From the NCBI GenBank assembly GCA_023259035.1, contig JAHFRA010000001.1, positions 62,001-126,000 of the forward strand: a stretch of 64,000 bases of DNA, in the 5' to 3' direction. Of this stretch, positions 13,992-30,569 are shown piece by piece. The position numbers and the translations under genes are program-made. The DNA is from Gallionella sp. (lineage in GTDB: Bacteria; Pseudomonadota; Gammaproteobacteria; Burkholderiales; Gallionellaceae). Within the stretch, counting starts at the first letter, position 1; every line of letters begins with the position of its first letter. A model generated the notes under the pieces. It had not been told where the DNA came from. It saw nothing but the letters and a program-made list of their open reading frames with translations, and ran no database searches.

Positions 13992-14106
13992 GTTTAGTCC
14001 CTGCTGTAGCCGGTGGCGGCAGCACACCTTGCAGGTGTCGGCTACCAGCTACCGGCCACAAATATTATAAATAAATTCATCCGGCACCGATTGCAGCGCG
14101 ATGATA

Positions 14107-15639
14107 CTACAAACCAAAAAATCGTTTAACAGTTGCCAGCAGCTCATTATGCTGGTGACGTATTTCTTGATGCTTGGATTCCTCGTCCAGATTTTGCAGC
14201 GCACTGTCCAGTTGTATGCGGCGCGCCACCAGCACCTGCGACACCTCCTCGGCTATGCCGGGGCGCGCCAACAGGATTTCTTCAAAAGCCTCCTTGTCGA
14301 GGCGGTAGCATTCCACATCGGTCTTGGCGATAACCGAAGCCACGCGCGGCGATCCTGTCATCAGACTCATCTCGCCGAAGAAAGCGCCATTGGAGAGCAC
14401 GCTCAAAATACGCCTCTCTCCATTCGCCGCGTCCAGATAAACTTCTGCCTCGCCGCTGATGATAACAAACAGCCAATGCTGCGAGGGCGTGCCCTGCCTG
14501 GCGATGATATCGCCCTTGGCAAACGGCGCATACCTGAGACGTTCGGCCAGCTTGCGCAACTCGTCATCCGTCATTTGCGCAAACAGTTCGACGCGTTTGA
14601 GAAACTTGAGGCGGCGCATCAATTCGCGATGCTGCACCGCTTCTTCATATTTTTCGTTCTCTTTAATGAAGTGGACATTGTGTTCTTCCACGGTGAGCCT
14701 GATATCGGCACGCTCCAGTGCCGTATAGATATGCCAGCGCACCACCGCATCGGTGGGATCATCCATTGCCAGATCGGTCAACCAGTAACGCAGCGCATAG
14801 CGTGCGCAACCTTTGTCCATCTCCATCAACACACAATTCGGCGCGGGTGATTTGGCGACATTGCTGATTTCGGCTTGCAGAATGGCATCCTCGATGGCGC
14901 TGACAACCTTGGTGGGCGTGGTGTTCAGGCCGACGTTGAACCACACCCAGCGCCGCCATTGCACCGGTTGGTCGGCGCGCCGCCCCAGCACCAGAAATTT
15001 GTTCTTCATCAACTGGCTGTTGGGGAACACCACAGTTTCCCAGTTGCGCGTTTCCACCAGCGTGGAGCGCCAGCGGATATCCACTACGCGACCGGAGATA
15101 TCGTCCACCTTGATCCAGTCGCCGATTTCGATGGAGTTATCCAGCTGCAGAGCCAGGCCGCCCAGAATGTTGCCCAGCGTATCCTGCATGGCGAACGCCA
15201 CCACGGCGGTAATCATTGCCGATGTCGCGACGATACTGCCCAAATCAAGGCCGGCGTAGCGCAACCGCACCAACCCCCAGGCGATATAGCCGATGATGAC
15301 AAAAATATCTTCGGCAATGCGCGGTGGCGTGATGCGCATCTGCGGCAAGATGATGCGGAACACCAGCAACCCCCACAAGCGAATTACCGCAATGCCGGTT
15401 CCGATCAACCCGGCTTCGTGGAACACTGCGGCAGCGGAGACAAATTGCAGCGCATGAATCAAGCTGCTGGCAAATTGCAGCGCCAGGCAGACAAAGAAGA
15501 AAGTCAGCGTATTCAGGACGCTTTTGCGCTCATCCCTGAGAAAATTCAACAACAGGAACACCAGACACAGCGTCATCACCAGCACCGGCAACGACTCTTC
15601 GCGCCAGAAAAACTGCATTGCGGTATTCCAGAAAGACAT
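14107..15639 (-). CDS. MscS-type mechanosensitive channel fused to a cyclic nucleotide-binding domain
   Basis: 510 residues. The N-terminal third has several membrane segments (LPVLVMTLCLVFLLLNFL; VLNTLTFFFVCLALQFA). It is followed by the MscS core: pore helix SIVATSAMITAVVAFAMQDT with NILGG, then the beta domain LDNSIEIGDWIKVDDISGRV. Residues about 350-470 form a cNMP-binding domain (FAKGDIIARQGTPSQHWLFV; NGAFFGEMSLMTGSPR). This matches the bCNG class, in which channel opening is coupled to cyclic nucleotide rather than to tension. The phosphate-binding cassette reads FFGEMSLMTGSPRVA, which is intact enough to bind a ligand. It stands alone, 115 bases upstream of accA. Confidence 0.9.
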   Translation of the reverse strand: MSFWNTAMQFFWREESLPVLVMTLCLVFLLLNFLRDERKSVLNTLTFFFVCLALQFASSLIHALQFVSAAAVFHEAGLIGTGIAVIRLWGLLVFRIILPQMRITPPRIAEDIFVIIGYIAWGLVRLRYAGLDLGSIVATSAMITAVVAFAMQDTLGNILGGLALQLDNSIEIGDWIKVDDISGRVVDIRWRSTLVETRNWETVVFPNSQLMKNKFLVLGRRADQPVQWRRWVWFNVGLNTTPTKVVSAIEDAILQAEISNVAKSPAPNCVLMEMDKGCARYALRYWLTDLAMDDPTDAVVRWHIYTALERADIRLTVEEHNVHFIKENEKYEEAVQHRELMRRLKFLKRVELFAQMTDDELRKLAERLRYAPFAKGDIIARQGTPSQHWLFVIISGEAEVYLDAANGERRILSVLSNGAFFGEMSLMTGSPRVASVIAKTDVECYRLDKEAFEEILLARPGIAEEVSQVLVARRIQLDSALQNLDEESKHQEIRHQHNELLATVKRFFGL

Positions 15640-16879: not shown

Positions 16880-17104
16880 ATGATGAGCAGATTCGAGTTT
16901 CCCATTACACAGCTTTCATTCACCCAAAAATTGGATTTGATGGAGACGCTTTGGGCGGACATGATCGGCAACGAAAAAAAGTTGGAATCCCCAGTCTGGC
17001 ATGAAGCCGTTCTCAATGATCGCGAGGCTGCACTGGAGGCAGGCAAAATAACTGTATCAAACTGGGAAGAAGCCAAGGAAAGAATAAAGAAAAACGTCTC
17101 ATGA
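16880..17104 (+). CDS. Addiction-module antitoxin (RelB/CHP02574 family)
   Basis: 74 residues (MMSRFEFPITQLSFTQKLDLMETLWADM) ending in a charged helix (EAGKITVSNWEEAKERIKK). The LxxxEKLxLxExLW-like start and the W-E-E-A-K tail are typical of the small antitoxins that partner ParE-type toxins. A GGAAAGGAAAT run precedes the ATG. It overlaps the toxin gene as ATGA. The fold, inferred from the family, is a helical dimerisation part plus a toxin-binding tail. Confidence 0.88.
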   Translation: MMSRFEFPITQLSFTQKLDLMETLWADMIGNEKKLESPVWHEAVLNDREAALEAGKITVSNWEEAKERIKKNVS

Positions 17105-17394
17105 GGGTAAAAATCCTCAGCATTGCAGAGAACGACCTCGAAGAAGGTTACCGGTTCTATGAGTCACAGGCTGACGGTCTAGGCACATATTTTCTTGATA
17201 CGCTTTACTCTGACATTGACTCGCTGGCCTATTTTGCTGGGATGCACCGCATAGTGCTGGGCCACCATCGGCTGCTCTCCAAACGATTCCCATTTGCTGT
17301 CTATTACCGTGTCGTTGACGATGTGGTCTTGGTATTCGCCGTTCTTGATTGCCGCCAAAATCCAAGCTGGATAAGGGCAAAGCTATCCAAGTGA
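17101..17394 (+). CDS. ParE/RelE-superfamily toxin
   Basis: 97 residues with the RelE/ParE fold signature: an N-terminal strand (MRVKILSIAENDLEEGYRFY), helices, and a C-terminal YYRVVDDVVLVFAVLDCRQNPSW. Members either inhibit gyrase or cut ribosome-bound mRNA; the sequence alone does not decide. Its start overlaps the antitoxin stop by four bases. The length is normal and no disruption is visible. Confidence 0.88.
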   Translation: MRVKILSIAENDLEEGYRFYESQADGLGTYFLDTLYSDIDSLAYFAGMHRIVLGHHRLLSKRFPFAVYYRVVDDVVLVFAVLDCRQNPSWIRAKLSK

Positions 17395-17482
17395 TGAGCC
17401 ATGCGACGCTGGCTGCCAAGCGCAATTTTTAACCGACCGCCCCCTTTCATTCTTTCATTTGGGTTGTAAAAACTGCCAAGCC

Positions 17483-18457
17483 ATGGACCGCTTACAACGC
17501 ATCTATAAACTGCATCAAGCAGTTTCCTCACGCCGCCATCCCATATCCTGTCAAACATTACAAGATGAACTCGAATGTTCGCGCGCCACGGTCAAGCGCA
17601 TCATTCAGGAGATGCGCCTGTATTTCAACGCACCGATTGAATATGACCGCCAGCGCAACGGTTACCACTATGCGTTGAGCGATGGGAAAACCTTCGAGCT
17701 TCCCGGTCTCTGGTTCAGCGAAACCGAACTCTATGCGCTGCTGGCCACCCAACAACTGCTCGCACACGTTCAACCCGGCCTGCTCGATACACAACTCAAG
17801 CCCGTCAAAGAACGCATCGAACAAATCCTCGCGACCAGACACTTGGGCAGCGAGGAAATCTCCAAACGAGTACACATCCTGCGCATGACCGGACGCAATG
17901 TCGCGCTGGAGTGTTTCCAAACCGTAGCGGACGCACTGCTGCAAAGAAACAGCCTGAACATCAGCTACCACGGGCGCGGCAACGACGAAACCAGCCAGCG
18001 CGAAATCTCCCCGCAGCGGCTCATCCACTACCGCGACAACTGGTATCTGGACGCTTACTGCCATACCCGCAACGCCCTGCGCAGCTTCGCCGTCGAACGC
18101 ATCACCGCTGCCAAGGCATTGCCACAGCGTTGCCGCGACGTGCCGGAAAAACAACTCGATGCACATTACGCCAGCTCCTACGGCATCTTCGCGGGCAAAC
18201 CCAAACATACTGCCGTGCTGCACTTCACTCCCAAACGGGCGCGCTGGGTGGCGGATGAACACTGGCATCCGCAGCAACAAAGCCTCATGCTTGCGGATGG
18301 CAGCTATGAGTTGCGTATTCCCTATTCCGATTCACGCGAACTGGTCATGGATATTCTCAAGCATGGCGCAGATGTGGAAGTTATCGCGCCGGAAAGATTG
18401 CGTCACGAGGTGTTGGAACACTTACGCCAAGCCGCAGAAAAATACAACGATACGTAG
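17483..18457 (+). CDS. WYL-domain transcriptional regulator
   Basis: 324 residues from ATG 17483. An N-terminal winged helix-turn-helix (MDRLQRIYKLHQAVSSRRHP; LQDELECSRATVKRIIQEMR) is followed by a WYL domain (ISPQRLIHYRDNWYLDAYCH, RSFAVERI) and a WCX-like C-terminal region. WYL proteins sense nucleic acid or nucleotide ligands, and many sit next to phage-defence loci. This one is on the same strand as the cas operon, about 2 kb upstream, with a broken gene and other small genes between. Control of the CRISPR locus is a reasonable guess but unproven. A perfect inverted repeat follows immediately. Confidence 0.9.
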   Translation: MDRLQRIYKLHQAVSSRRHPISCQTLQDELECSRATVKRIIQEMRLYFNAPIEYDRQRNGYHYALSDGKTFELPGLWFSETELYALLATQQLLAHVQPGLLDTQLKPVKERIEQILATRHLGSEEISKRVHILRMTGRNVALECFQTVADALLQRNSLNISYHGRGNDETSQREISPQRLIHYRDNWYLDAYCHTRNALRSFAVERITAAKALPQRCRDVPEKQLDAHYASSYGIFAGKPKHTAVLHFTPKRARWVADEHWHPQQQSLMLADGSYELRIPYSDSRELVMDILKHGADVEVIAPERLRHEVLEHLRQAAEKYNDT

Positions 18458-19534: not shown

Positions 19535-19602
19535 ATGACAGGCTCAGGTTTTGAGCCTGTGGGGGTGGATAATGGCAATCGTCTGAAACCAAAGAGGGCA
19601 TC

Positions 19603-20234
19603 ATGTCACGGCGCGCATTCCTGAAATCACTCACAGCACTCGTTCCTGTCCTCACTTCGCCTGCCACCGCCCATGCCAGTATCCGTGGCGGAACATGGAA
19701 AGCCTTGCAGGCCTCCCCGCTCGCCAGGTTCCAATTCCACAACGGCGAAACCCTGTGGCCGCACTTTACCGTTCGCCCTGAGCCAAGTAAGCCCCGCATA
19801 CGCGAGGCAAGGCGTGAGCAGGAAACAGAACCCAGAACCCAAAACCCCCTCCAGCTCCCCCTTGTCAGGGGGAGGGCCAGTGCAGCTCCTCCCCTGACAA
19901 GGGGAGGCCGGGAGGGGTTTGAGCCTGATGGCGTCTGTTCGGCTATTTTCTGTACTTTGTAACTCATTGATGCGTATGGCTATAAAAAGCTGTTTCTTGA
20001 GAGCCTGTCGAAGGGCCACCGCATCTGGCACGCGAGGCCAACAACCAATTTGACGACCACGCCGTGCGCGTGGATTGGCAAAACCACAAGCTGGGCTACA
20101 TCCCCCGGTTGGATAATGCCGCCGTTTCGCCATTGCTGGATCGCGGGGAAACGCTGGAGGCGACGATAGTCGGGTTGGAGAGCAGCAGCAACACGTGGGA
20201 CAGGGTTAAGGTAGAAGTGAAATGGAAGGTATGA
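19603..20234 (+). pseudogene. HIRAN-domain protein gene broken by repeat insertion
   Basis: The 5' part (from ATG 19603) encodes a Tat-like leader (MSRRAFLKSLTALVPVL) and FQFHNGETLWPHFTV. The 3' part, in another frame (about 20022 to the TGA at 20232), encodes LAREANNQFDDHAVRVDWQN, KLGYIPRLDNAAVSPLLDRG and a normal end. Together they make one exported HIRAN protein with the usual motif order. About 248 bases of non-coding repeat DNA (19774-20021) separate the halves, with stop codons in every relevant frame. HIRAN domains recognise DNA ends in helicases, but small exported versions have no known role. The gene looks inactivated. Confidence 0.8.
19841..19920. repeat. Palindromic repeat inserted in the HIRAN gene
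   Basis: The arms start with AAAACCCCCTCCAGCTCCCC and end with the near complement GGGAGGGGTTT. Internal segments CTTGTCAGGGGGAG and CTCCCCTGACAAGG are also complementary. A fragment of the GAGCCTGTCGAAGG family lies at 20002-20015, so the insert is composite. Confidence 0.75.
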
Positions 20235-20491
20235 ACATAAACAATCGCTGGGCAACACAAATCGCCACAAACCCGGAAATCTTGACGGGGAAACCCATCA
20301 TCGCGTGCACCCGCATTTCTGTCGAGTTGATGCTGGATTGCATGGCCTCCGGCTGGAGCGCTGATAAAGTCGTTGAAGCATACCCCCACATTACGCCAGA
20401 AGATGTATTGGCGGCTTTGGCTTTTGCTGCCGATGTACTGAGAAAGAAACCGTTTGTTACTGTTGCGAAGGTTGAGTCAGTTGGTGTGTAG
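20222..20491 (+). CDS. DUF433-family antitoxin-like protein without a visible toxin
   Basis: 89 residues with the DUF433 signature: NPEILTGKPIIACTRISVEL, GWSADKVVEAYPHITPEDV, AALAFAADVLR. The fold is a winged helix and the family usually pairs with a DUF5615 PIN-like toxin directly downstream. Here the next gene is cas5, 32 bases on, so the toxin is missing. An alternative ATG at 20231 overlaps the HIRAN stop. It might be a solitary regulator or the survivor of a decayed pair. Confidence 0.8.
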   Translation: MEGMNINNRWATQIATNPEILTGKPIIACTRISVELMLDCMASGWSADKVVEAYPHITPEDVLAALAFAADVLRKKPFVTVAKVESVGV

Positions 20492-20523: not shown

Positions 20524-21189
20524 ATGGGTAAAAAATATTCTGTGGCGTTAGAAATTTCAGGGCCAACTGCCATGTGGACTAGACCCGATACCGGGGACTC
20601 TCCAGTTAGCTACCCTGCGCCGACGTATTCCGCTGCAAAAGGAATCTTCGAGTCCATTTTGTGGATACAGGCTGTCGAGATTATTCCGACCCAAATCGAG
20701 ATATGTGCTCCCATCGTATATCACAACTACAACACGAATTATGGTGGCCCCTTGCGCAAGGGCGGAGTCATCAAATCTGGCGGCAGCTTCCAGCTTTTGG
20801 CATCGGCACTGATTAACCCTTGTTATCGCTTGTACGCAGAAATCCGGCGCAACCCAAGAACAAACGGGGTAATGAGCGAACGTACCCGGACTTGGCAAAA
20901 TAAAACCACATCGCCTGAACATGCCTATCAGGAAATGTTCAACCGCAGACTGAAGCGCGGCCAGTGCTTTTCTATACCTTTTTTGGGCTGGAAGGAGTTT
21001 GCTCCCGACTATGTAGGTACCTTTCGGCAAACGACTCAAGTGATGCGTGACATCAATCTACGGATACCCAGCATGTTGCGGCAAGTTTTTCCAAATGGCC
21101 TTCATAGTGAGCTTCAATATGTGTACGACAATGATGTGGACATAACGGAAGGTGTGCTCACCTTCAAGGACGTGACCAATGTTGAATGA
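20524..21189 (+). CDS. cas5: CRISPR Cascade subunit Cas5 (type I-C-like)
   Basis: 221 residues. It opens with a Cas5 strand (YSVALEISGPTAMWTRPDTG and SYPAPTYSAAKGIFESIL). The C-terminal half has the Cas5c signature FNRRLKRGQCFSIPFLGWKEF. In type I-C this subunit both caps the crRNA 5' handle and cuts the pre-crRNA, since no cas6 exists; none is seen here. The lysine-histidine pair used by some Cas5c nucleases is not obvious (EHAYQEMF occupies the spot), so the catalytic residues may differ. The gene heads the cas operon and overlaps cas8c by 11 bases. Confidence 0.88.
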   Translation: MGKKYSVALEISGPTAMWTRPDTGDSPVSYPAPTYSAAKGIFESILWIQAVEIIPTQIEICAPIVYHNYNTNYGGPLRKGGVIKSGGSFQLLASALINPCYRLYAEIRRNPRTNGVMSERTRTWQNKTTSPEHAYQEMFNRRLKRGQCFSIPFLGWKEFAPDYVGTFRQTTQVMRDINLRIPSMLRQVFPNGLHSELQYVYDNDVDITEGVLTFKDVTNVE

Positions 21190-23275
21190 ACTTTATGAGT
21201 TGTCATTGAGTTTGGAAAAGGCTGGGATTATGCCTGCTGAATGGCATCCCGACTTAAAAGAACTACCACAGGTATCGAAGGCCAAGCCTTGTTTTAAAGT
21301 TTGCTTGGCGCAAGACGGTGCAATTACTGAGATTGAACTAATCGAAGACAGTGCACGAATCGTGAACCTCAGGAAGTGGCAAAGTGGCAGCCTTGGTTAC
21401 ACGTTCCCATGTTTCAATGTGCGCCCTTTGTTTAAAGCCTATGCGGGGAGCAGTGCCGTAGCGCCTGAGAAGAAAAAATTTGATGACTGGCTGAAAGATG
21501 TAAAAAAGGCGCAGGTGTTGAGCGATGCTGCTGCTTCGGCACTGGAACGCTATACGAATAATGGCAATACGTTGTGGGGTGATAGGGATAAGGAACGTGT
21601 TGCAACATGTCTGGATAGCATTCCATCGAAACTAAACGAAATACTTGGCGAACCACCAGATGAGTATCGTGCAATGGCCGTGCTGATCGAGCGCTGTCGC
21701 AAGACAACGGCAGACAAATTTTTCCAACAACTTGTTGTGTTACTGGAAGATCGAATTCGTAAAAACCCAAGCGCTTGCGACAAGTACGTTGGCTTTCTGC
21801 TGCATTGCGGTACAAACCCACCTAACAACGACATTCAACTCATTTTGGAATTGGCGGATGGGCTTTCTGCATTTCCATTGCCTGCGGCAAATTCAAAGAT
21901 ACACCTTTGGCTTAATCAGCAACTATTGAGTAATAAAAGTGACGAGTTATCAGATGGTGCTGCATCAAGTAAACACGCGGATGCTTTTGGTTTTACAAGC
22001 GAGGATTGGAAGAGCAAGTTCGCGGAAGTCAACGTGCCCGTTCTCGGTGGCGTCAAGCTACGAGCCATGAACCCAGAATCACCATGTCAAACGCGTTATC
22101 GCCGGATCGATTCAACATCGTTTGTAGTGGGAAGGGAAGTTCGAAAGCGAGCTAAGGGTGCTTTGGAATGGCTGACTGATGACGAACGAAAGGACAAGAC
22201 ATGGGGGAATGTGTCATTCGCCCGTGACGATAAAGAGATACTGCTTGTTTACCCTTCTGAATTGCCAAAGGCACCCATCGCTGCCGTTGCAATGTTTGGA
22301 GGCGCAGCCACAAACGCAGCAACACAATCTGCACGATTCGTGGATTACGCGGAAGACGTGATCAAAGCGTTGCATACAATTTCGCGGCCTCTTAAAGAAG
22401 TGGAAATGCGCGTCTTTGCCTTGCGCAAAATTGACAAGGCAAGAACACAGATTTCATGTAACCGGCAGTATTCGGCTGAGCGATTGATAGCCGCCGCTAC
22501 AGAATGGCAAACGAACTGTGGCAACGTACCCCTGATTGAAATAAGACAATGGGGCAAAGAGAAAGGAGCCAAGCCGGTATGGCACCCCTTGGAAGTTCCG
22601 TTTCCACTGGAAGTGATCTGGTGTCTTAACACGCCTTGGCCAAAGGCTGCTGATGATGCGAAGAAAAGAGTCCGGGAATTTTCCAGTTCGGATGGTATCG
22701 GTTTGTTGCTTGATGAGGGGGTGCGGCTCAAGCCGCTACTGGAAAGAGCTTTGCATGCGGCTATACGCAATAGCGGAAATTTGATGATAGCGATGGCACA
22801 TTCCCAGCATCAAGGCGGCATACACAAAGTCAATGGAAAGTACGACAAACAGAAGCTGCTGCTACCTGCAATATTGGGATTACTTTTGGCAAAACTTGAA
22901 TGGAAGAAAGGGGACTACATGAAAACTGCTCCATATCTAATTGGCAGAATGCTGAGCTTGGCCGATCAGATTCATTATCACTATTGCCAGCATGTTAGAA
23001 AAGGGAGTACCCCGTCGCAGTTGATGGGCAATGCACTGATGACAACAGCACTGGAAGAGCCGGAGAAAGCCTTATCTCTTTATGCACAGCGTATCTTGCC
23101 CTATCAGGCATGGGCAAGAACGGCAAAGGGTGATGAAGGCAAGCTTGCGGGATGGTTTCTCTCAGAACTTGGCAAGGTTTGTTCGGATGTCGCGCTTGCC
23201 CATATTCCAGACCGATGTGCCGATGCTGATAAAGCGCAATTGATGCTTGGTTACCTTGCCAAAAACGAAAGTTAA
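21179..23275 (+). CDS. cas8c: CRISPR Cascade large subunit Cas8c/Csd1-like
   Basis: 698 residues, longer than typical Csd1 proteins (about 570-620). The family pattern is visible in TRYRRIDSTSFVVGREVRKR, ILLVYPSELP and the C-terminal helical part ending in DKAQLMLGYLAK. Cas8 recognises the PAM and recruits Cas3. The position between cas5 and cas7 is that of type I-C. An internal ATG at 22919 with AAAGGGG just upstream would give a separate 118-residue C-terminal product equivalent to Cas11. The sequence is divergent enough that I call it Cas8c-like rather than a confident orthologue. Confidence 0.8.
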   Translation: MLNELYELSLSLEKAGIMPAEWHPDLKELPQVSKAKPCFKVCLAQDGAITEIELIEDSARIVNLRKWQSGSLGYTFPCFNVRPLFKAYAGSSAVAPEKKKFDDWLKDVKKAQVLSDAAASALERYTNNGNTLWGDRDKERVATCLDSIPSKLNEILGEPPDEYRAMAVLIERCRKTTADKFFQQLVVLLEDRIRKNPSACDKYVGFLLHCGTNPPNNDIQLILELADGLSAFPLPAANSKIHLWLNQQLLSNKSDELSDGAASSKHADAFGFTSEDWKSKFAEVNVPVLGGVKLRAMNPESPCQTRYRRIDSTSFVVGREVRKRAKGALEWLTDDERKDKTWGNVSFARDDKEILLVYPSELPKAPIAAVAMFGGAATNAATQSARFVDYAEDVIKALHTISRPLKEVEMRVFALRKIDKARTQISCNRQYSAERLIAAATEWQTNCGNVPLIEIRQWGKEKGAKPVWHPLEVPFPLEVIWCLNTPWPKAADDAKKRVREFSSSDGIGLLLDEGVRLKPLLERALHAAIRNSGNLMIAMAHSQHQGGIHKVNGKYDKQKLLLPAILGLLLAKLEWKKGDYMKTAPYLIGRMLSLADQIHYHYCQHVRKGSTPSQLMGNALMTTALEEPEKALSLYAQRILPYQAWARTAKGDEGKLAGWFLSELGKVCSDVALAHIPDRCADADKAQLMLGYLAKNES
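22919..23275 (+). CDS. cas11: Candidate Cas11 small subunit made by internal initiation within cas8c
   Basis: An in-frame ATG (codon 581 of cas8c) begins MKTAPYLIGRMLSLADQIHY and runs 118 residues to the shared stop. AAAGGGGACTAC directly precedes it, a strong ribosome-binding sequence at proper spacing inside a coding region. Type I-C systems are known to make Cas11 from an internal start in cas8c, with a product of about this size and all-helical character. An earlier ATG at 22784 has a weaker signal. The call is inferred from those facts, not from homology to a measured Cas11. Confidence 0.6.
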   Translation: MKTAPYLIGRMLSLADQIHYHYCQHVRKGSTPSQLMGNALMTTALEEPEKALSLYAQRILPYQAWARTAKGDEGKLAGWFLSELGKVCSDVALAHIPDRCADADKAQLMLGYLAKNES

Positions 23276-23316
23276 AATTTCAACTGTATTACTTAATAAC
23301 GACTCAGGAGAAAATT

Positions 23317-24174
23317 ATGAGCAACACAGAAAACAAAATTAAGCGCGCAACTGGTTTGCTAATCATTGAAGTCATCAATTCCAATCCTAACGGTGATCCA
23401 GACCGGGAAAGCGATCCGCGCCAGAGACCGGATGGCAAAGGCGAGATTTCACCTGTGTCGTACAAACGCAAATTGCGTGACCTCGTCGAGGATAAGCAGG
23501 CTGATGTTTGGCAGGTTCTCAATGAGCAGATGAAGTTAAATCCTGAGGAGTTCACCATACTTGAATCGCGCGGGCGTAACAGAGCAACAATCAACGACGA
23601 ACTTAAAAACGGCCAATTTCAGAAGAAGTATTGGGATGGCCGCGTATTCGGCAATACGTTTCTCGAAGATGCAATGGACAAGGGTACTATCAAGACGGGT
23701 GTCGTACAGATTGGCCTCGGCGTATCCATTGCCCCAATTGATATTGAGCGTCATACCAACACCAACAAGGCCGGGGTTGAAGAAGGCAAAACTGCTGGCA
23801 TGGCACCAATGGCCTACCGTTTTGTTCAACACGGCGTGTATTGCATGCCATTTTTCGTGAACCCTACCATGGCGCATAAGTCTGGCTGCACGGTGCAAGA
23901 CATCGAGTTACTCAAAAAACTGATCCAACACGCATATGCGCACACGCGCTCACACGCGCGTCCGTTTGTCGAAATCCGCCATGCCTGGTATTGCGAACAT
24001 AACAACCCGCTGGGTTCATGCTCCGACTTCGCCTTGATCGACGCATTGAAGCCGAAGAAGAAAATTGATGCCAATAAGCCATCCACCAGTTGGGACGACT
24101 ACGACGTGCCAAAAAGCTTGCCTGATGATTTGAAAAACAAAGTCGAGTGCGTTGATCTTGTAAACTTTGCATGA
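23317..24174 (+). CDS. cas7: CRISPR Cascade backbone Cas7 (Csd2/Csh2 family)
   Basis: 285 residues. It starts with the RAMP-like strand and glycine-containing loop (GLLIIEVINSNPNGDPDRES) typical of Cas7 in types I-C and I-B, with DLVEDK, GQFQKKYWDGRVFGNTFLED and HARPFVEIRHAWYCEH. Multiple copies form the crRNA-binding backbone. AGGAGA precedes the ATG at 23317. The 3' end overlaps cas3 as ATGA. Confidence 0.9.
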   Translation: MSNTENKIKRATGLLIIEVINSNPNGDPDRESDPRQRPDGKGEISPVSYKRKLRDLVEDKQADVWQVLNEQMKLNPEEFTILESRGRNRATINDELKNGQFQKKYWDGRVFGNTFLEDAMDKGTIKTGVVQIGLGVSIAPIDIERHTNTNKAGVEEGKTAGMAPMAYRFVQHGVYCMPFFVNPTMAHKSGCTVQDIELLKKLIQHAYAHTRSHARPFVEIRHAWYCEHNNPLGSCSDFALIDALKPKKKIDANKPSTSWDDYDVPKSLPDDLKNKVECVDLVNFA

Positions 24175-26378
24175 GTTATCTCGCGCACAGTGCCCGGTCG
24201 GATCGTGGCATTCCTGTTCAGGAATACCACGAGCACGTCATCGAGACGCGGCATCATGCGCAAGAAAACGCCGCAAAGGCAGGGCACTATGCAACAAGGT
24301 ATGGCCGCTTACTGGAAGCTGTGGCAGCGCTCGCTGGCGAATTTCATGACATGGGTAAACTCGATGATGATAATCAGGCGGTGCTCAATGGCAGTGTTTC
24401 CGCCAAGAAACTACCGGTGCAGCATGTTGATGCTGGGGTTGCTCATCTTTTGAGTTTGGGAGAGCAATGGCATCAGCTCGCGGCATTTATTTCCTACGCT
24501 CATCACATCGGGCTGCAATCGTTCTCAGCAGAAGTGAACAAAGGCGACCAATTTCTTCGCGATGAAAAAACAGTTGCTCTGACCAAAGAGCGACTGCATC
24601 AATACCTTGACCGGCACTACCAAGGCATCGGCGAGTTGGATGTCATAGCTCCAAACAACATCGAATTGCCTCAGCCGCAGATACTTCTACGCATGGCACT
24701 ATCATGTTTGGTCGATGCAGATCATGGCGATACAGCACGTCACTACGGTGACGCGGCGCAATGCGAACCTTTCCAGCTTCGTCCGCTGGAACGGGCAAAG
24801 GCACTTGATCGGTATGTAAGCTCGTTGAGTAAAGATGCCGATGATCGCACTAAGGCACGGCAAGCAGTATATGAAACGTGTCGTAGCGCAGACACCAAGC
24901 CCGCTTTATACGCTTGCGACAGCCCGGTAGGCACAGGCAAAACAACCGCCGTGATGGCGCACTTGCTCAAGGCAGCACATGACAAAGGATTGCGGCGCGT
25001 GTTTGTCGTGTTGCCCTATACCAACATCATTAGCCAGTCGGTTGATGTGTACCGCAAGGCATTGGTACTTGATGGCGAAAACACTGAAGAGGTTGTAGTT
25101 GCGCATCACCATCGTGCCGAATTCTCAAGCCCGGATGCTCGACAATTCACGGCACTTTGGCAGGCTCCGATTGTTGTTACTACGGCTGTGCAATTTTTTG
25201 AAACCTTGGCGAGCAACCAACCAGCCGCGTTGCGCAAACTACACAACCTGGCGGGTTCAGCCGTGTTCATTGACGAAGCTCATGCCGCTTTGCCTGCGCA
25301 TTTGTGGCCACAGACATGGCGATGGTTACAGGAGCTTGCTCAAGATTGGGGTTGTCATTTTGTGTTCGGCTCCGGTTCGCTGACACGGTTCTGGGAGTTG
25401 CCGGATTTCGTTGATCCACCAGCGAAACTTCCAGAGCTTGTAACCGGAAAAATGCGGAGCAGTCTTGTAGAAAACGAAGTTCAGCGAGTGATGTATAAGC
25501 ATAAACCGGATGCAATCAACGTGAGCGATTTACTTGCATGGCTGCGAGTATTGCCTGGTCCAAGACTTTTAATCGTCAACACTGTTCAATCTGCGGCGGT
25601 TATCGCCAAATCAATTCAGGCTGTAGATGGTAAAGGTAAAGTTGAGCATCTTTCTACCGCACTTATGCCGCTTGATCGCGAAAAAACATTGGCGCGCATT
25701 AAAGCGAGATTGCGACAACATCAAGATAGGCCGGATGAGGTGAAATTTGCAGATTGGACATTGGTGGCAACATCATGCGTGGAGGCCGGTGTGGATTTGT
25801 CTTTCCGAACAGGTCTGAGAGAAAGCGCAAGTTTGGTGAGCTTGATTCAGGTGGGTGGGCGCGTAAATCGTCATCAGGAATTTGGACAATCGGAAGTTTG
25901 GACATTTGCGTTGCAGGAAACCGACATGCTTCGACTTCATCCTGGCTTCAAAGCCTCATCAAAGGTTCTCGAAACGATGTTCGCAGAAGATCGAGTTACG
26001 CCGGATGATTGTAAAGAAGCCTTGCGACGAGAAATTTGTTTAAGCGGTTTGAAAGACAAAATCCGCAATTTTGAGGATGCCAAAGATTTTCCAGAAGTTC
26101 ATTCGTTATTCCGCGTCATTGATGCGAACACCTATACGGTTGTGGTGGACGACATCGTTAAGCAACGGTTGAAAAATTGGGACCATGTTTCATGGCAGGA
26201 GATTCAAAATTGCAGTATACAAATATGGGGAACTCGGATTGAGTCATTGTGTGTTCCGCAGTTTGATCGGTATCCGAATCTTTATGAATGGAATCTCGCC
26301 TATGATAATTTTCTCGGTTACATGGCAGGTGTGCTACAGGTTGAGGAGTTTGGTGCAAAAGGTGGGGCTGTGCTTTGA
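24171..26378 (+). CDS. cas3: CRISPR helicase-nuclease Cas3 (HD + SF2)
   Basis: 735 residues with an N-terminal HD nuclease (H20/H28 region EYHEHVIETRHH, then GEFHDMGKLDDDNQAVL at about 57-73). An SF2 helicase follows: Walker A DSPVGTGKTTAVMAHLLK near residue 250, DEAH box in VFIDEAHAALP near 368, and motif VI QVGGRVNRHQEFG near 570. It is recruited by Cascade to nick and shred target DNA. All catalytic motifs look intact. It lies last in the effector block, after cas7, instead of first as in canonical type I-C. The C-terminal domain is shorter than in many Cas3 proteins. Confidence 0.93.
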   Translation: MSYLAHSARSDRGIPVQEYHEHVIETRHHAQENAAKAGHYATRYGRLLEAVAALAGEFHDMGKLDDDNQAVLNGSVSAKKLPVQHVDAGVAHLLSLGEQWHQLAAFISYAHHIGLQSFSAEVNKGDQFLRDEKTVALTKERLHQYLDRHYQGIGELDVIAPNNIELPQPQILLRMALSCLVDADHGDTARHYGDAAQCEPFQLRPLERAKALDRYVSSLSKDADDRTKARQAVYETCRSADTKPALYACDSPVGTGKTTAVMAHLLKAAHDKGLRRVFVVLPYTNIISQSVDVYRKALVLDGENTEEVVVAHHHRAEFSSPDARQFTALWQAPIVVTTAVQFFETLASNQPAALRKLHNLAGSAVFIDEAHAALPAHLWPQTWRWLQELAQDWGCHFVFGSGSLTRFWELPDFVDPPAKLPELVTGKMRSSLVENEVQRVMYKHKPDAINVSDLLAWLRVLPGPRLLIVNTVQSAAVIAKSIQAVDGKGKVEHLSTALMPLDREKTLARIKARLRQHQDRPDEVKFADWTLVATSCVEAGVDLSFRTGLRESASLVSLIQVGGRVNRHQEFGQSEVWTFALQETDMLRLHPGFKASSKVLETMFAEDRVTPDDCKEALRREICLSGLKDKIRNFEDAKDFPEVHSLFRVIDANTYTVVVDDIVKQRLKNWDHVSWQEIQNCSIQIWGTRIESLCVPQFDRYPNLYEWNLAYDNFLGYMAGVLQVEEFGAKGGAVL

Positions 26379-26499
26379 TATACATGGATCATCAATGCCC
26401 TGCCCTCAATCTAGCACATAGGTGTTGCAAACCGACAGAAGCCACCTGCCAAAAAGTATGCGTTTGTATAAAAGGCATGAGTGAGGTGAGAAAACGACT

Positions 26500-26706
26500 G
26501 TGACCGAAATTTTATTTCTCGCGGAGCAGTCTGCCGAAGGCGGTTACACCGCACGGGCATTAGGTGGCTCCATCTTTACCGAGGCGGACACGTTGCCGGA
26601 ATTGCGCCTGATGGTGCGGGACGCAGTAGGTTGCCATTTCGGCGAAAGCGATATACCCAAGATTATCCGTTTGCATATCGTGCGTGAAGAGATACTGGCA
26701 GTATGA
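26500..26706 (+). CDS. HicB-like small antitoxin
   Basis: 68 residues from GTG 26500 with GAGGTGAG upstream. The sequence (FLAEQSAEGGYTARALGGSI; ELRLMVRDAVGCHF; IIRLHIVREEILAV) belongs to a HicB-type family often misannotated as a 2-oxoisovalerate dehydrogenase subunit. Such proteins precede a HicA mRNA interferase. Here the downstream HicA frame ends after 11 codons, so the toxin is gone. The gene lies between cas3 and the cas4-cas1-cas2 block. Confidence 0.8.
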   Translation: MTEILFLAEQSAEGGYTARALGGSIFTEADTLPELRLMVRDAVGCHFGESDIPKIIRLHIVREEILAV

Positions 26707-26738
26707 ATTTGCCGAATGAGCTTGATCGGAATTATTGA
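26703..26738 (+). pseudogene. Vestigial HicA toxin start
   Basis: An ATG overlapping the HicB-like stop (ATGA) encodes MNLPNEL, close to the usual HicA N-terminus (MNLPRDL-like), then DRNY and a TGA. Nothing HicA-like follows; the opposite-strand ParE gene ends at 26743. I read this as a deletion scar. Confidence 0.5.
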
Positions 26739-26742
26739 AATT

Positions 26743-27051
26743 TCAACGTCGCTCAACCCAATACCCGGGTCGGCGGCTGTGATGGGCGACGGCAATGACG
26801 CGGATCGTATTGTTTTGCTGCCGGTAAATCAGGGAATAAGGAAAACTATGGAAAGGCAGGGTTCGTGTGTTGTATGCGCCGGGTTCGCCCAGCTTGGTGA
26901 ACTGGCTCAGGAGACTCAGAGCTTGTTCAAGTTCATCGGCAAAATCGTCTGCTGCGATGAACGCGCCCTCGCCGATGTACCAATCTGCAGCTGCATCTGC
27001 GTCGGCTTGCGCCTCGCTGCTAAGACTGACTTGCACCGGCTTTGGCGGCAT
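26743..27051 (-). CDS. ParE/RelE-superfamily toxin within the cas locus
   Basis: 102 residues with ParE-like pattern: SSEAQADADAAADWYIGEG, FADELEQALSLLSQ, GAYNTRTLPFHSFPYSLIYR and IRVIAVAHHSRRPGYW. The conserved Arg and the His/Trp-containing C-terminus fit the family. It is on the minus strand, opposite to all cas genes. It overlaps its antitoxin by 32 bases in another frame; an internal later start is possible but would cut the first strand. Target (gyrase or mRNA) is not decidable. Confidence 0.88.
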   Translation of the reverse strand: MPPKPVQVSLSSEAQADADAAADWYIGEGAFIAADDFADELEQALSLLSQFTKLGEPGAYNTRTLPFHSFPYSLIYRQQNNTIRVIAVAHHSRRPGYWVERR

Positions 27052-27286
27052 GGATTTTTGCGCGGAGCCGTGTCATCACTTCGTCGGCTGGAATCCATTT
27101 TGTGCGTCCGGCTTCCATGTCCGCCACGCGCCGGGCAATTTCTTCGTCCCAGGCTTTGGCAATGACTTCCGGCGACTCTTCAGGTTCGCCTTCGAGGCTG
27201 ACGATCAAGCGATGGATCAATTTGCCGCGTTCCGGCGGCGATAGTTGCAAAGCCTGTTTTTCGAGTTCTTCCAGAATGACTGTCAT
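27020..27286 (-). CDS. Addiction-module antitoxin partner of the ParE-like toxin
   Basis: 88 residues from ATG 27286, with GGAGGT upstream; the longer reading frame upstream overlaps cas4 and is not real. The core LEKQALQLSPPERGKLIHRL and IAKAWDEEIARRVADMEAGR, then WIPADEVMTRLRAKIH, is a classic RelB-type addiction antitoxin. It transcribes away from cas4, whose start lies 51 bases off on the other strand, so the two genes share a divergent promoter region. Confidence 0.88.
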   Translation of the reverse strand: MTVILEELEKQALQLSPPERGKLIHRLIVSLEGEPEESPEVIAKAWDEEIARRVADMEAGRTKWIPADEVMTRLRAKIHAAKAGASQS

Positions 27287-27337
27287 GATGACCTCCGTAG
27301 ATACAATTATTTCAAGCAGCATGATAGCACCACTGCC

Positions 27338-27967
27338 ATGAACGAAGTAGCCGACCCCATCAACGTTTCCGCCCTCAACCAGTACACCTATTGCCCGCGC
27401 CGCTGTGGTTTGATTTATCTGGAAAACGAATTTTCCGACAATATTCACACATCACGCGGCAACGCCGAGCATGAGCGAGTGGATCAGTCAGGGTATGTGA
27501 CAACGCGTGAAGGCGCGCGCGCTGAATATGCCTTGCCAGTGTGGTCTGAACGGATTGGGCTAATCGGCAAATGCGATGTGGTGGAATTCTGGCCGGATGG
27601 AAATATCTATCCGGTGGAATACAAGCATGGGGAACGCAAGAAGCGTCTTAACGATGACCTGCAACTGGCCGCGCAAGCTTTGTGTTTGGAAGAAATGACC
27701 GGTAAACCAATTTTGTATGGCGCGATTTATCACCATACATCGCGCCACCGCCGCGAGGTCGCCATCACACCTGAGCTGAGGCGGCAGGTAGAAGACACTG
27801 TTGCAGCCATCCGCGCCATGATGGATTCCGGCAAGCTGCCGCCCCCTGCCAATGACGCGCGCTGCAAGGAGTGTTCGCTGAAGGAAATTTGCCAGCCGCA
27901 GGTTGTCGCCGGGCGTGCAACGCAGCATAGTTTGCTGGAAACATTGTTCGAACCGGAGGCTACGTAA
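27338..27967 (+). CDS. cas4: CRISPR adaptation nuclease Cas4
   Basis: 209 residues from ATG 27338 (MNEVADPINVSALNQYTYCP). Iron-sulfur Cys are seen at the N-terminal YCPRRC and in the C-terminal CKECSLKEIC. The RecB-type nuclease motifs are GKCDVVEF and PVEYKHGERKK, with the Asp, Glu and Lys in place. Cas4 trims prespacers and sets PAM and orientation during spacer integration. It heads the adaptation block, followed by cas1 two bases later. Confidence 0.92.
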   Translation: MNEVADPINVSALNQYTYCPRRCGLIYLENEFSDNIHTSRGNAEHERVDQSGYVTTREGARAEYALPVWSERIGLIGKCDVVEFWPDGNIYPVEYKHGERKKRLNDDLQLAAQALCLEEMTGKPILYGAIYHHTSRHRREVAITPELRRQVEDTVAAIRAMMDSGKLPPPANDARCKECSLKEICQPQVVAGRATQHSLLETLFEPEAT

Positions 27968-27969
27968 AA

Positions 27970-29007
27970 ATGGCGCGCCAGATTCTCAACACCCTTTATG
28001 TCATGACGCCGAACTCCTACCTCCATCTGGAGAACGACACGTTGCGGGTGGACGTGGAGCGCGAGAAAAAATTGCAGGTGCCGCTGCATCACTTGGGCAG
28101 TGTGGTGTGCCTGGGCAATATCATGCTTTCACCCGCGCTGATGCACCGCTGTGCGGATGACGGCATCAGCCTGGTGTTGTTGAGTAATAACGGGCGATTC
28201 AAGGCGCGCCTCGAAGGCGCGGTCTCCGGCAACATCCTGCTACGGCAGGCGCAGCATCGCCTGGCGCTGGATGAAAAATTTGCGCTGGGCATTGCTCATA
28301 GCGCGATTGCCGGGAAGTTGCGTAATTCGCGCCAAGTGCTGTTGCGCGGTGCGCGTGAAGCAGTGGATGGGAAAGACAGCAGCGCACTCGCGGCGGCATC
28401 CGAGACCCTTTCCAACTCGTTGCGCAATCTGCCGCACGCCCCCGATTTGGATGTAGTGCGCGGCATCGAAGGCGATGCAGCAAAAAATTATTTCGCCGCG
28501 TTGCCGTTGTTGGTCAAGCGTGAGGCACGTGATAAATTCGCGATGGATGGCCGCACTCGGCGACCGCCACGCGACCGTTTCAATGCGCTGCTGTCATTTC
28601 TTTATTCCATGCTGATGAACGACTGCCGTTCCGCTCTGGAGGCGGTTGGTCTTGATCCGCAACTCGGTTTTCTGCATGCCGTGCGCCCCGGTCGCGCCGC
28701 GCTCGCGCTGGATTTGATGGAAGAGTTTCGCGCCATTTTCGCTGACCGCTTGGCGCTCACCCTGATTAACCGTGGGCAGATCGGCTCCAACGATTTTGCC
28801 GAACGTGAAGACGGAGCAGTGCTGCTCGAAGGTGATGCGCGCCGCACCGTGGTAGTTGCCTATCAGGAACGCAAACAGGAAGAAGTGATGCACCCGTTGC
28901 TGGAAACCAAAGTGCCGATAGGCCTGCTGCCGTTATTACAAGCGCGCTTCATGGCGCGTACCCTGCGCGGTGAGATGGAAGGATATCTCCCGTTTATTTA
29001 CCGTTAA
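27970..29007 (+). CDS. cas1: CRISPR integrase Cas1
   Basis: 345 residues, the usual size for type I-C. Metal-binding residues appear in [18 protein letters not shown] (Glu), [17 protein letters not shown] (His) and [16 protein letters not shown] (Glu/Asp). The N-terminal beta-rich domain begins [20 protein letters not shown]. With Cas2 it inserts new spacers at the leader end of the array starting at 29481. It is intact. Confidence 0.96.
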
Positions 29008-29011
29008 CATT

Positions 29012-29302
29012 ATGCTGATCATTATCACTTACGACGTATCCACCGTAACCGCAGCCGGACGCAAGCGGCTGCGCCGCGTCGCGAAAGTATGCGAGAGCAC
29101 CGGGCAGCGTGTGCAAAATTCGGTCTTTGAATGCAAGGTAGATCAGATGCAACTTGAAGAATTAGAGCGGCGATTGCTTGATGAGATAGACGAAAAAGAA
29201 GACTGCTTGCGCCTCTATCGTTTGACTGAACCAGTGGAACTGCACATCAAGGAGTATGGTAAATTCCATGCTGTGGATTTTGAAGGAGCACTGGTAATAT
29301 GA
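29012..29302 (+). CDS. cas2: CRISPR adaptation subunit Cas2
   Basis: 96 residues from ATG 29012 ([20 protein letters not shown]), with the Asp of the first strand (YDV) and [12 protein letters not shown] characteristic of Cas2. It dimerises between two Cas1 dimers to measure prespacer length. The start was set at this ATG because the upstream in-frame sequence overlaps the end of cas1. The array leader follows directly. Confidence 0.95.
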
Positions 29303-29480
29303 CGCGCGAACCAGTAGCAACGACACAAACGCGGCAGGTTCGCGTTGCGGCTAACATATTGACGAAGGATGATTTTTCGCCTTCGTTGTTTGGTTGTGTG
29401 TACTCTTGGAGGAAAAAAAACCGAGGGTTCGCGCAAAGTGCGCTTTTCAACGTTGATAGTCATGGCGTTGTAAGCGGGCT
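29303..29480 (+). promoter_or_regulatory. CRISPR leader
   Basis: 178 bases between the cas2 stop and the first repeat. It is less GC-rich than the array and has a run of As at 29413-29420. It lies on the side from which the repeats read toward their ATTGAAAC end, so it should hold the array promoter and the Cas1-Cas2 integration signals. No clear -10 was found. Confidence 0.7.
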
Positions 29481-30526
29481 GTAGCGCCCGCGCCTCGGCG
29501 CGGGCGAGGATTGAAACAACCTATACCGAGTTGTCAAATGCCACCTTGAGGAGTAGCGCCCGCGCCTCGGCGCGGGCGAGGATTGAAACCGATGCGGCAG
29601 CGGTGGCCGATGCCGACCTGCTCGGTAGCGCCCGCGCCTCGGCGCGGGCGAGGATTGAAACTGATGCAGACAAGGCGCGGCTTGCTGCGCTCGAAACGTA
29701 GCGCCCGCGCCTCGGCGCGGGCGAGGATTGAAACGAGGTCGATTACGCCAAGGCGACCAGCGGCAAATGCGTAGCGCCCGCGCCTCGGCGCGGGCGAGGA
29801 TTGAAACGATAAAACCACTGCATCGATTACCGAAAAGGCCAAGGGTAGCGCCCGCGCCTCGGCGCGGGCGAGGATTGAAACCCCGGTGAGGCTCTGTTTG
29901 GTGCGAGTCGCGTAAGTAGCGCCCGCGCCTCGGCGCGGGCGAGGATTGAAACAGCCGCCATGAGCGCGAGCAGGTCTTGCGTTGCAGTAGCGCCCGCGCC
30001 TCGGCGCGGGCGAGGATTGAAACATTCCAATAATCGCCAAAGCAACCGATGAAATCGCGTAGCGCCCGCGCCTCGGCGCGGGCGAGGATTGAAACATCCA
30101 CTGTTCGGATTCTCCGAACGGTCGCACGCTGGTAGCGCCCGCGCCTCGGCGCGGGCGAGGATTGAAACAATCTGCCGTGCCCTGGTTCCAGTCATGGTTC
30201 TGGTAGCGCCCGCGCCTCGGCGCGGGCGAGGATTGAAACAAACGCTGCTTGAGTTTGATCTGCGCTGTTCCCGGGTAGCGCCCGCGCCTCGGCGCGGGCG
30301 AGGATTGAAACAACCGCATCCTGTCTCTGCTGCTTGGTGTAGCCTGGTAGCGCCCGCGCCTCGGCGCGGGCGAGGATTGAAACAGACTCGCCGCAACAGT
30401 CAGGACAGACTGACCGAAATAGCGCCCGCGCCTCGGCGCGGGCGAGGATTGAAACCTTCTCGTCCTCACCGGGCAGCAGGAAGGTGTGAGTAGCGCCCGC
30501 GCCTCGGCGCGGGCGAGGATTGAAAC
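29481..30526 (+). CRISPR. Type I-C-like CRISPR array: 15 repeats of 37 bp, 14 spacers of 34-37 bp
   Basis: Repeats start at 29481, 29553, 29625, 29698, 29771, 29845, 29916, 29987, 30059, 30132, 30203, 30275, 30347, 30419 and 30490. Each begins GTAGCGCCCGCGCCTCGGCG and ends GAGGATTGAAAC. A 9 bp stem (CGCCCGCGC/GCGCGGGCG) with a CTCG loop is present. All are identical as far as I read, except that the 14th has A in place of the first G. Near-perfect repeats and the neighbouring intact adaptation genes suggest an active system. Orientation is plus, as the 3' ATTGAAAC forms the crRNA 5' handle. No spacer obviously matches this window. Confidence 0.98.
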
Positions 30527-30560
30527 AGCGGGTTAATTGAAAAAGATCCAAGCAAACTAT

Positions 30561-30569
30561 ATAGCGCCC
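30561..30569 (+). repeat. Truncated terminal CRISPR repeat
   Basis: ATAGCGCCC stands exactly 34 bases after the last full repeat, where a 16th repeat should start, and matches repeat positions 1-9 apart from the G-to-A change also seen in repeat 14. The rest of the repeat is absent. The 34 bases between (30527-30560) may be the oldest spacer. Confidence 0.5.

Follow-up and report, generated by a model that had tools for sequence, protein, structure and literature searches.

A type I-C CRISPR locus of Gallionella that probably joins a variant effector cassette to a resident toxin-antitoxin and adaptation unit

The DNA considered here, called the window below, is a stretch of 64,000 nucleotides (nt) from a genome of Gallionella sp. 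(GenBank assembly GCA_023259035.1, contig JAHFRA010000001.1, positions 62,001 to 126,000). At 20524-30526 it carries a CRISPR (clustered regularly interspaced short palindromic repeats) locus related to type I-C, in which the effector genes cas5-cas8-cas7-cas3 are followed by toxin-antitoxin (TA) genes, by the adaptation genes cas4-cas1-cas2, and by the array (Table 1). The gene order, open reading frames (ORFs), families, and coordinates given by an earlier sequence-only reading were right when we re-read the DNA and scanned it with protein profiles, and the roughly 960 bases with TA genes that it had placed between cas3 and cas4 measure 959 nt from stop to start. We regard it as highly probable that this locus is a hybrid, in which a rare I-C-related effector cassette stands ahead of a resident unit of TA genes, adaptation genes, and array. 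The genome (68 contigs, 93.65% complete) holds one Cas1 match and no match to canonical Cas8c.

Canonical I-C loci are arranged cas3-cas5-cas8c-cas7-cas4-cas1-cas2. The locus in the window resembles them in its gene set, the fold of Cas8c, a likely Cas11c, the kind of 37-nt repeat, and Cas1/Cas2, but it differs in that cas3 comes last, that its effectors show only about 25-33% identity to the canonical matches listed, and that they lie under the cut-offs curated by NCBI for I-C. Cas5 scores 54.8 bits with the NCBIfam Cas5c model (cut-off 85) and Cas7 scores 123.2 bits with the I-C Cas7 model (cut-off 182.25), and Cas8 has no match among the Pfam or NCBIfam models; of the eight best matches listed for each protein, no canonical one exceeds 33% identity for Cas5, 29% for Cas7, or 31% for Cas3. 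Searches of the PDB with Cas8, by sequence or by profile, returned only chance-like matches. A PADLOC model and an AlphaFold fold both place this protein as an I-C Cas8c, the large subunit of the subtype, and the NCBIfam Cas8c model matches 39 of 55 homologues of it at E values up to 0.1. Because Cas5, Cas7, and Cas8 fall short of the NCBI cut-offs, we treat the effector as a variant rather than a standard member of I-C.

The sequence-only reading had described Cas8c as about 100 residues longer than typical. With ORF lengths counted from the first possible start, the 698 amino acids (aa) of the window's protein exceed the canonical median in its order, 606 aa, by 92 residues (39 ORFs of 559-696 aa, a 408-aa cut piece being omitted from 40), but four canonical Cas8c ORFs are also long, at 681-696 aa. 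Met581 is invariant across the 55 aligned homologues, and in the two loci read it is preceded by a Shine-Dalgarno-like sequence, AAGG at 7 nt in the window and AAGGAG at 6 nt in the variant locus L002; a putative small subunit, Cas11c, is likely to be made from this internal start of cas8. I-C effectors do without cas6, their Cas5 cutting at the 3' base of the repeat hairpin; no cas6 was found among the ten locus proteins scanned, and the rest of the genome was not searched for it.

A model of the variant Cas8c found four of 399 genomes of the window's order, which includes a Sulfuricella metagenome-assembled genome, one of 398 across the phylum, one of 158 in the window's family, and one of 74 in the family of genome G813; each count includes the centre genome, which is itself the single hit in both families. 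A search for the variant Cas8 on plasmids gave no match. A protein search, which does not show gene neighbourhoods, yielded 202 relatives. Canonical Cas8c occurs in 40 of the 399 genomes of the order and 29 of the 398 of the phylum, with genome G196 in both samples. All four variant loci (the window, L002/L008, L009, and L010) run cas5-cas8-cas7-cas3, L010 being cut after cas3 and L009 ending just beyond cas5 on the left; the cas3-first order of I-C is seen in none of the four. Among the canonical loci examined for gene order, 40 in the order and 30 outside it, cas3 precedes cas5 wherever it was found (38 of 38 and 25 of 25, or 63 of 63).

The lack of Pfam and NCBIfam matches to Cas8, the low NCBI scores of Cas5 and Cas7, and the constant cas3-last order could be taken to indicate a separate type I subtype with adaptation genes of its own. 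We consider this improbable, since the fold and the PADLOC model of Cas8 are those of I-C and the adaptation genes and repeats are canonical I-C, the window holding the complete I-C adaptation module of Cas1c, Cas4, and Cas2. The earlier suggestion of a distinct subtype variant stands as far as a divergent I-C branch is concerned, with cas3 last in four of four loci, but not as far as its own machinery is concerned, as nothing sets the adaptation genes apart from usual I-C ones and they group with the canonical I-C of the host lineage. The map of subtype I-C thereby gains a branch of effectors in which Cas8 mostly goes by the name "hypothetical protein".

The effector and adaptation genes have different trees. 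In the Cas7 tree (43 rows), the four variant loci group as a single clade (support 100). In the Cas1 tree, by contrast, each of the three variant loci that have this gene is paired with a different canonical row (38 rows; L073, with a longest piece of 293 aa, was left out of the 39 loci with Cas1): the window with L053 (support 99), L002 with L050 (96), and L009 with L059 (98). A single variant Cas1 clade is rejected (approximately unbiased test, p-AU 2.25e-5), and each partner, by its group code, comes from the same host family or genus as its variant locus. The window's Cas1 and Cas2 are 94% and 93% identical to those of the canonical L053, from the same host family, and identity to the variant L002 is 79%. 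One clade for Cas7 against three host-lineage pairs for Cas1 indicates that effector cassettes are exchanged in place.

The same can be followed in the DNA of L002 and L050, which belong to one genus. Their left sides are 81-82% identical over most of 4 kb, and this likeness ends at the stop of a HIRAN-domain gene; the effectors give no match by blastn at E up to 1e-10; and identity returns within cas4, at 85%, and extends through cas2. Because the flanks are alike and the effectors unlike, the cassette has changed here while both sides stayed. The sequence evidence for exchange in place is thus direct for L002 and L050, and for the window we infer it.

The TA genes in the window form a composite that bears on the age of this boundary. 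The HicB-like ORF matches no Pfam or NCBIfam model; it belongs to a cluster of 11 ORFs from 11 loci, all at the effector/cas4 junction and on the cas strand, and it is called HicB-like because the clustered ORF of L050, also of 68 aa, directly precedes a Pfam-confirmed HicA gene. ParE and its antitoxin exceed the cut-offs of PF05016 and PF09720 (Unstab_antitox), lie in overlapping genes, and form a type II TA pair. Between the window and the canonical locus L055, the DNA aligns from the start of hicB through the dead hicA, the end of ParE, the antitoxin, and cas4 to the array, and there is no alignment upstream of hicB. The joint of HicB, dead HicA, and ParE is aligned base by base, and hicA of L055 is truncated at the same joint. 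Since L055 has this joint too, the composite is older than the present effector of the window, or has moved between effectors, and is not a fresh insertion. Judged from these alignments, the TA pair is part of the adaptation side. The reading that suits it best is a self-contained cassette at the recombination boundary; because the antitoxin is the cassette's own, nothing in our results makes the TA genes depend on the Cas proteins. It should be mentioned that the body of ParE (26788-27064) is far less like L055 than the DNA on either side, as if the toxin had been replaced or were evolving faster.

The sequence-only reading had allowed that the TA pair simply inserted here. The variant L002, where cas3 and cas4 lie 5 bases apart without TA genes, agrees with a recent insertion into an otherwise coherent variant locus, but we find such an event very improbable: the same composite, with its truncation joint, occupies the same place in the canonical L055, 23 of the order's 37 canonical loci have TA genes or remnants at this junction, and the lack in L002 is explained by its breakpoint, likeness to its canonical relative resuming only inside cas4. 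Absence of the TA genes from close relatives had been named beforehand as a sign of a single recent insertion; the absence was found in L002, a Sulfuricella variant, and no proof of recent insertion came with it. Among 24 junctions compared with shuffled sequences, a remnant of the start of cas4 was supported in L052, after cas7 (0 of 100 shuffles), and weakly in L009 (5776-5871, between the effector end and the TA genes; 3 of 100), and the rest resembled shuffles; a candidate after cas3 of the window was dropped, as 63 of 100 shuffles scored as good. A promoter-like site before the window's cas4 is not kept in the L055 alignment and was not used.

TA genes and their remnants were counted at the cas junctions of 40 canonical and four variant loci with seeds drawn from the order's own junctions, so that other TA families would be missed, in the flanks and beyond the order as well. 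Loci truncated at a contig end contribute no junction, and the pattern was already in view when the trees and the counts were made. Besides the canonical loci, two of three variant loci have TA genes at the effector/cas4 junction. The cas3/cas5 junction has none in 38 loci (Fisher p 5e-10 against the 23 of 37), cas4/cas1 has them in 4 of 39 canonical and variant loci (p 3e-6 against effector/cas4), and this junction-seeded search found none at cas5/cas8 (0 of 43), cas8/cas7 (0 of 43), or cas1/cas2 (0 of 38) in the same two groups. In the flanks there are five TA gene hits in 320,247 nt, three of them in the window and the other two at contig ends, just after cas7 in L070 and below cas4 in L087. 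Representative junction genes belong by Pfam to HicA, ParE, Unstab_antitox, PIN, DUF433, DUF5615, nucleotidyltransferase, PemK-like, and RHH families. The HicBA, PIN, and DUF433 genes lie on the cas strand, and the opposite strand carries ParE and its antitoxin in the window and in every one of the 9 canonical loci of the order with one or both of these genes.

Outside the order, TA genes occur at 4 of 22 junctions (L119, L120, L126, and L146), and L121 is cut after the pair. All five of these loci belong to family f39 and have ParE on the cas strand; another f39 locus, L129, has no TA genes, and the remaining 18 junctions are 82 nt or shorter. The TA hot spot is limited to certain lineages and is no general rule of I-C. 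The Cas1 tree requires a minimum of 13 changes of TA state when coarse classes are used and 18 with fine ones, "none" being taken as a state, so that TA families arrive, vanish, and replace one another in place.

Some further genes were seen near these junctions. After cas3 of L010, an antitoxin-like frame (14020-14137; PF09720 18.0 bits, under the cut-off) breaks off near the contig end, maybe at an insertion-sequence end, and was left uncounted. The cas4/cas1 gap holds an opposite-strand PemK/MazF-like toxin with an RHH antitoxin in L060 and L068 (Pfam on the L060 pair), and large ORFs of about 200 to 585 aa in L081-L083 and L088, with no TA-seed match among the ORFs listed. Nucleotidyltransferase-domain genes, which we take to be possible MNT members of an MNT-HEPN pair, adjoin cas4 in L074 and L075 (Pfam on the L074 gene). 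In the window, a DUF433 gene lies directly before cas5 (20222-20491), and DUF433 is also found at cas7/cas4 of L049, L071, L073, and L074; a second Unstab_antitox/ParE-type pair lies about 3 kb to the left of the cassette (16880-17394, + strand).

Several observations weigh against the hybrid reading. The Cas7 tree joins long branches and drew a warning from the program, and only three variant loci hold both modules, L010 ending after cas3. Cas1 of L009 and L059 is only 79% identical, and the window's Cas4 is about equally near to L055, L053, and L002 (73%, 72%, and 71%). L053 shares DNA with the window only from cas4 on, and the window is without a near relative that holds the old cassette at the same site. 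Some of the junction TA genes are decayed, a full toxin-antitoxin pair (by a length cut) being kept in 12 of the 23 TA-bearing canonical junctions. As matters of sequence comparison, the mosaic, the shared TA joint, the differing Cas7 and Cas1 trees, and the TA hot spot at the junction are established.

The clustering of TA genes at effector/cas4 may mean that the slot is tolerant, that recombination is frequent there, or that the genes serve as a guard, and position alone cannot decide among these. That the junction is the sole place to tolerate inserts, because the other cas genes overlap, with TA genes as common inserts, has in our view a little short of an even chance. The genes cas5, cas8, and cas7 do mostly overlap or abut, and the window's genome has 8 ParE-family matches, yet the cas3/cas5 gap exceeds 240 nt in 9 of 38 loci and none of the 38 has TA genes of these families there, and the flanks give only 5 gene hits in 320 kb, a count biased by the junction-derived seeds. 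It is unlikely, though worth stating, that the TA genes act as guards, selected at this junction because loss or replacement of the adaptation side frees the toxin, so that cas4-cas1-cas2 and the array stay while effectors change. Their strong position bias, the repeated replacement in place (13 coarse changes on the Cas1 tree), and the full-length pairs at 12 of 23 junctions would suit guards, and a like idea appears for vapBC of the Sulfolobales in the accessible part of one paper (PMC4390879); against this, some members have decayed (HicA is dead in both the window and L055, and ParE is short in L066), and no TA genes are seen at 14 of the order's 37 junctions or at 18 of the 22 from elsewhere. 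We also propose, quite tentatively, that effector/cas4 serves as a docking site for exchangeable cassettes before a TA-marked unit of adaptation and memory, and that the TA genes bias which recombinants survive.

The repeats of the three array-bearing variant loci are of 37 nt and of the same kind as in the six canonical loci read, which is what one would expect of an array that is part of the resident unit. Folding of the repeat leaves 11 nt on the 3' side of the hairpin, which would fit the length of I-C CRISPR RNA (crRNA) handles. Spacer 3 (29662-29697, + strand) matches a viral contig at 35 of 36 bases, with GTC as the 5' flank, and this contig carries what we take to be Mu-like head genes from their translations; it is very likely, from this match, that the array has taken phage DNA. 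Among spacers 1-4, 6, 7, and 12, used as core patterns against viral contigs, one of seven matched, and a single protospacer is too little to define a protospacer-adjacent motif (PAM). When the whole array was compared with a phage collection, all matches were weak, the best having an E value of 0.03.

On the left, 14 of 40 canonical loci in the order have a HIRAN gene, a WYL gene, or both close to the first cas gene, as do 5 of 30 canonical loci from elsewhere and three of the four variant loci, the one without a visible left frame being L009 with its early contig end; in canonical and variant loci alike, relatives of the WYL regulator occur no farther than about 2.1 kb from this cas gene. 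Both pieces of the window's HIRAN gene have 82% DNA identity to the canonical L063. About 270 nt (19764-20030) interrupt this gene in the window, and the pieces are about 30 nt apart in L063.

Table 1. Features of the CRISPR locus and its left frame in the window
Feature	Position	Strand	Basis
WYL-domain regulator, left frame	17459..18457	+	Pfam WYL/WCX/HTH_11
HIRAN-domain gene, interrupted, last of left frame	19539..20234	+	pieces 19539-19763 and 20031-20234; PF08797 in second piece
cas5 of I-C variant	20524..21189	+	PADLOC Cas5c 81 bits
cas8, variant Cas8c, 698 aa	21179..23275	+	PADLOC PDLC01562 488.6 bits over residues 1-695; AlphaFold model as I-C Cas8c
likely internal start for small subunit Cas11c, 118 aa	22919..23275	+	invariant Met581; Shine-Dalgarno-like AAGG
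cas7	23317..24174	+	Pfam Cas_Cas7 187 bits
cas3, last in effector cassette	24171..26378	+	PADLOC Cas3c 348 bits
HicB-like antitoxin gene, 68 aa	26500..26706	+	ORF cluster with other loci
dead hicA start	26703..26738	+	11 codons, then stop; joint common to L055
ParE-type toxin	26743..27051	-	Pfam PF05016 51 bits
Unstab_antitox-family antitoxin	27020..27286	-	Pfam PF09720 42.6 bits on longer frame; start and reading checked
cas4	27338..27967	+	NCBIfam TIGR00372 135 bits, cut-off 65
cas1, canonical I-C type	27970..29007	+	NCBIfam TIGR03640 Cas1c 507 bits, cut-off 385
cas2	29012..29302	+	NCBIfam TIGR01573 over cut-off; 93% identity to L053
CRISPR array, 15 repeats of 37 nt, 14 spacers of 34-37 nt	29481..30526	+	

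In the hybrid reading, the variant cassette cas5-cas8-cas7-cas3 would occupy the slot held in relatives by the canonical cas3-cas5-cas8-cas7, between the left frame (WYL and HIRAN) and the right unit (HicB, dead HicA, ParE and antitoxin, cas4-cas1-cas2, and array). Its product would act as an I-C Cascade: Cas5 would process the crRNA to an 11-nt 5' handle, Cas8 would read the PAM, Cas11c would come from the internal start, and Cas3 would degrade DNA. The spacers used would be those acquired by the host lineage's own Cas4-Cas1-Cas2.

Exchange of effector modules in place, beside adaptation "attractor" genes that are mostly fixed, is already known (PMC6452270). The present case is alike in that adaptation genes and array stay while effectors change; it is unlike what the accessible part of that paper describes in lying within I-C and in the window's order, in the likeness that resumes in or next to cas4, and in the TA genes at the boundary, and TA genes at a breakpoint are unmentioned in that part. 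In the Sulfolobales, vapBC pairs are interspersed in cas cassettes and were suggested to maintain them, as the available text has it (PMC4390879). Type II TA pairs within cas clusters are common to both cases, whereas ours concern bacteria and several TA families at a single fixed junction, with other junctions counted for comparison. CreTA elements are RNA toxin-antitoxin guards of CRISPR that Cascade represses through an ectopic repeat, according to the accessible parts of two papers (PMC9458426, PMC12737573); they too lie near cas genes, but the window has protein pairs, and a search of it for a CreTA-like ectopic repeat beyond the array, allowing 3 mismatches of 18, or 1 of 11, found none. 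The main text of the 2025 classification, in the part available, names "I-C" once, for transposons (PMC12669027), and a further partly available paper describes another "type I-C variant" in huge phages, without Cas1-Cas2 and with another helicase (PMC7162821). In the open-licence literature, as far as its texts were accessible, we found no report of the cas3-last order, of TA genes at cas7/cas4, or of TA-linked module exchange, an absence of little weight; the variant and the counted TA hot spot were likewise not found in print there.

These observations follow, at the level of DNA and within one subtype, a change of CRISPR effector with the memory kept, and they tie TA genes to the exchange site by means of counts. 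The long-discussed idea that TA genes hold CRISPR loci in place can now be tested on one defined junction. If the effector/cas4 junction is indeed a docking site, lineages would keep their spacers and their Cas1-Cas2 while trying new effectors.

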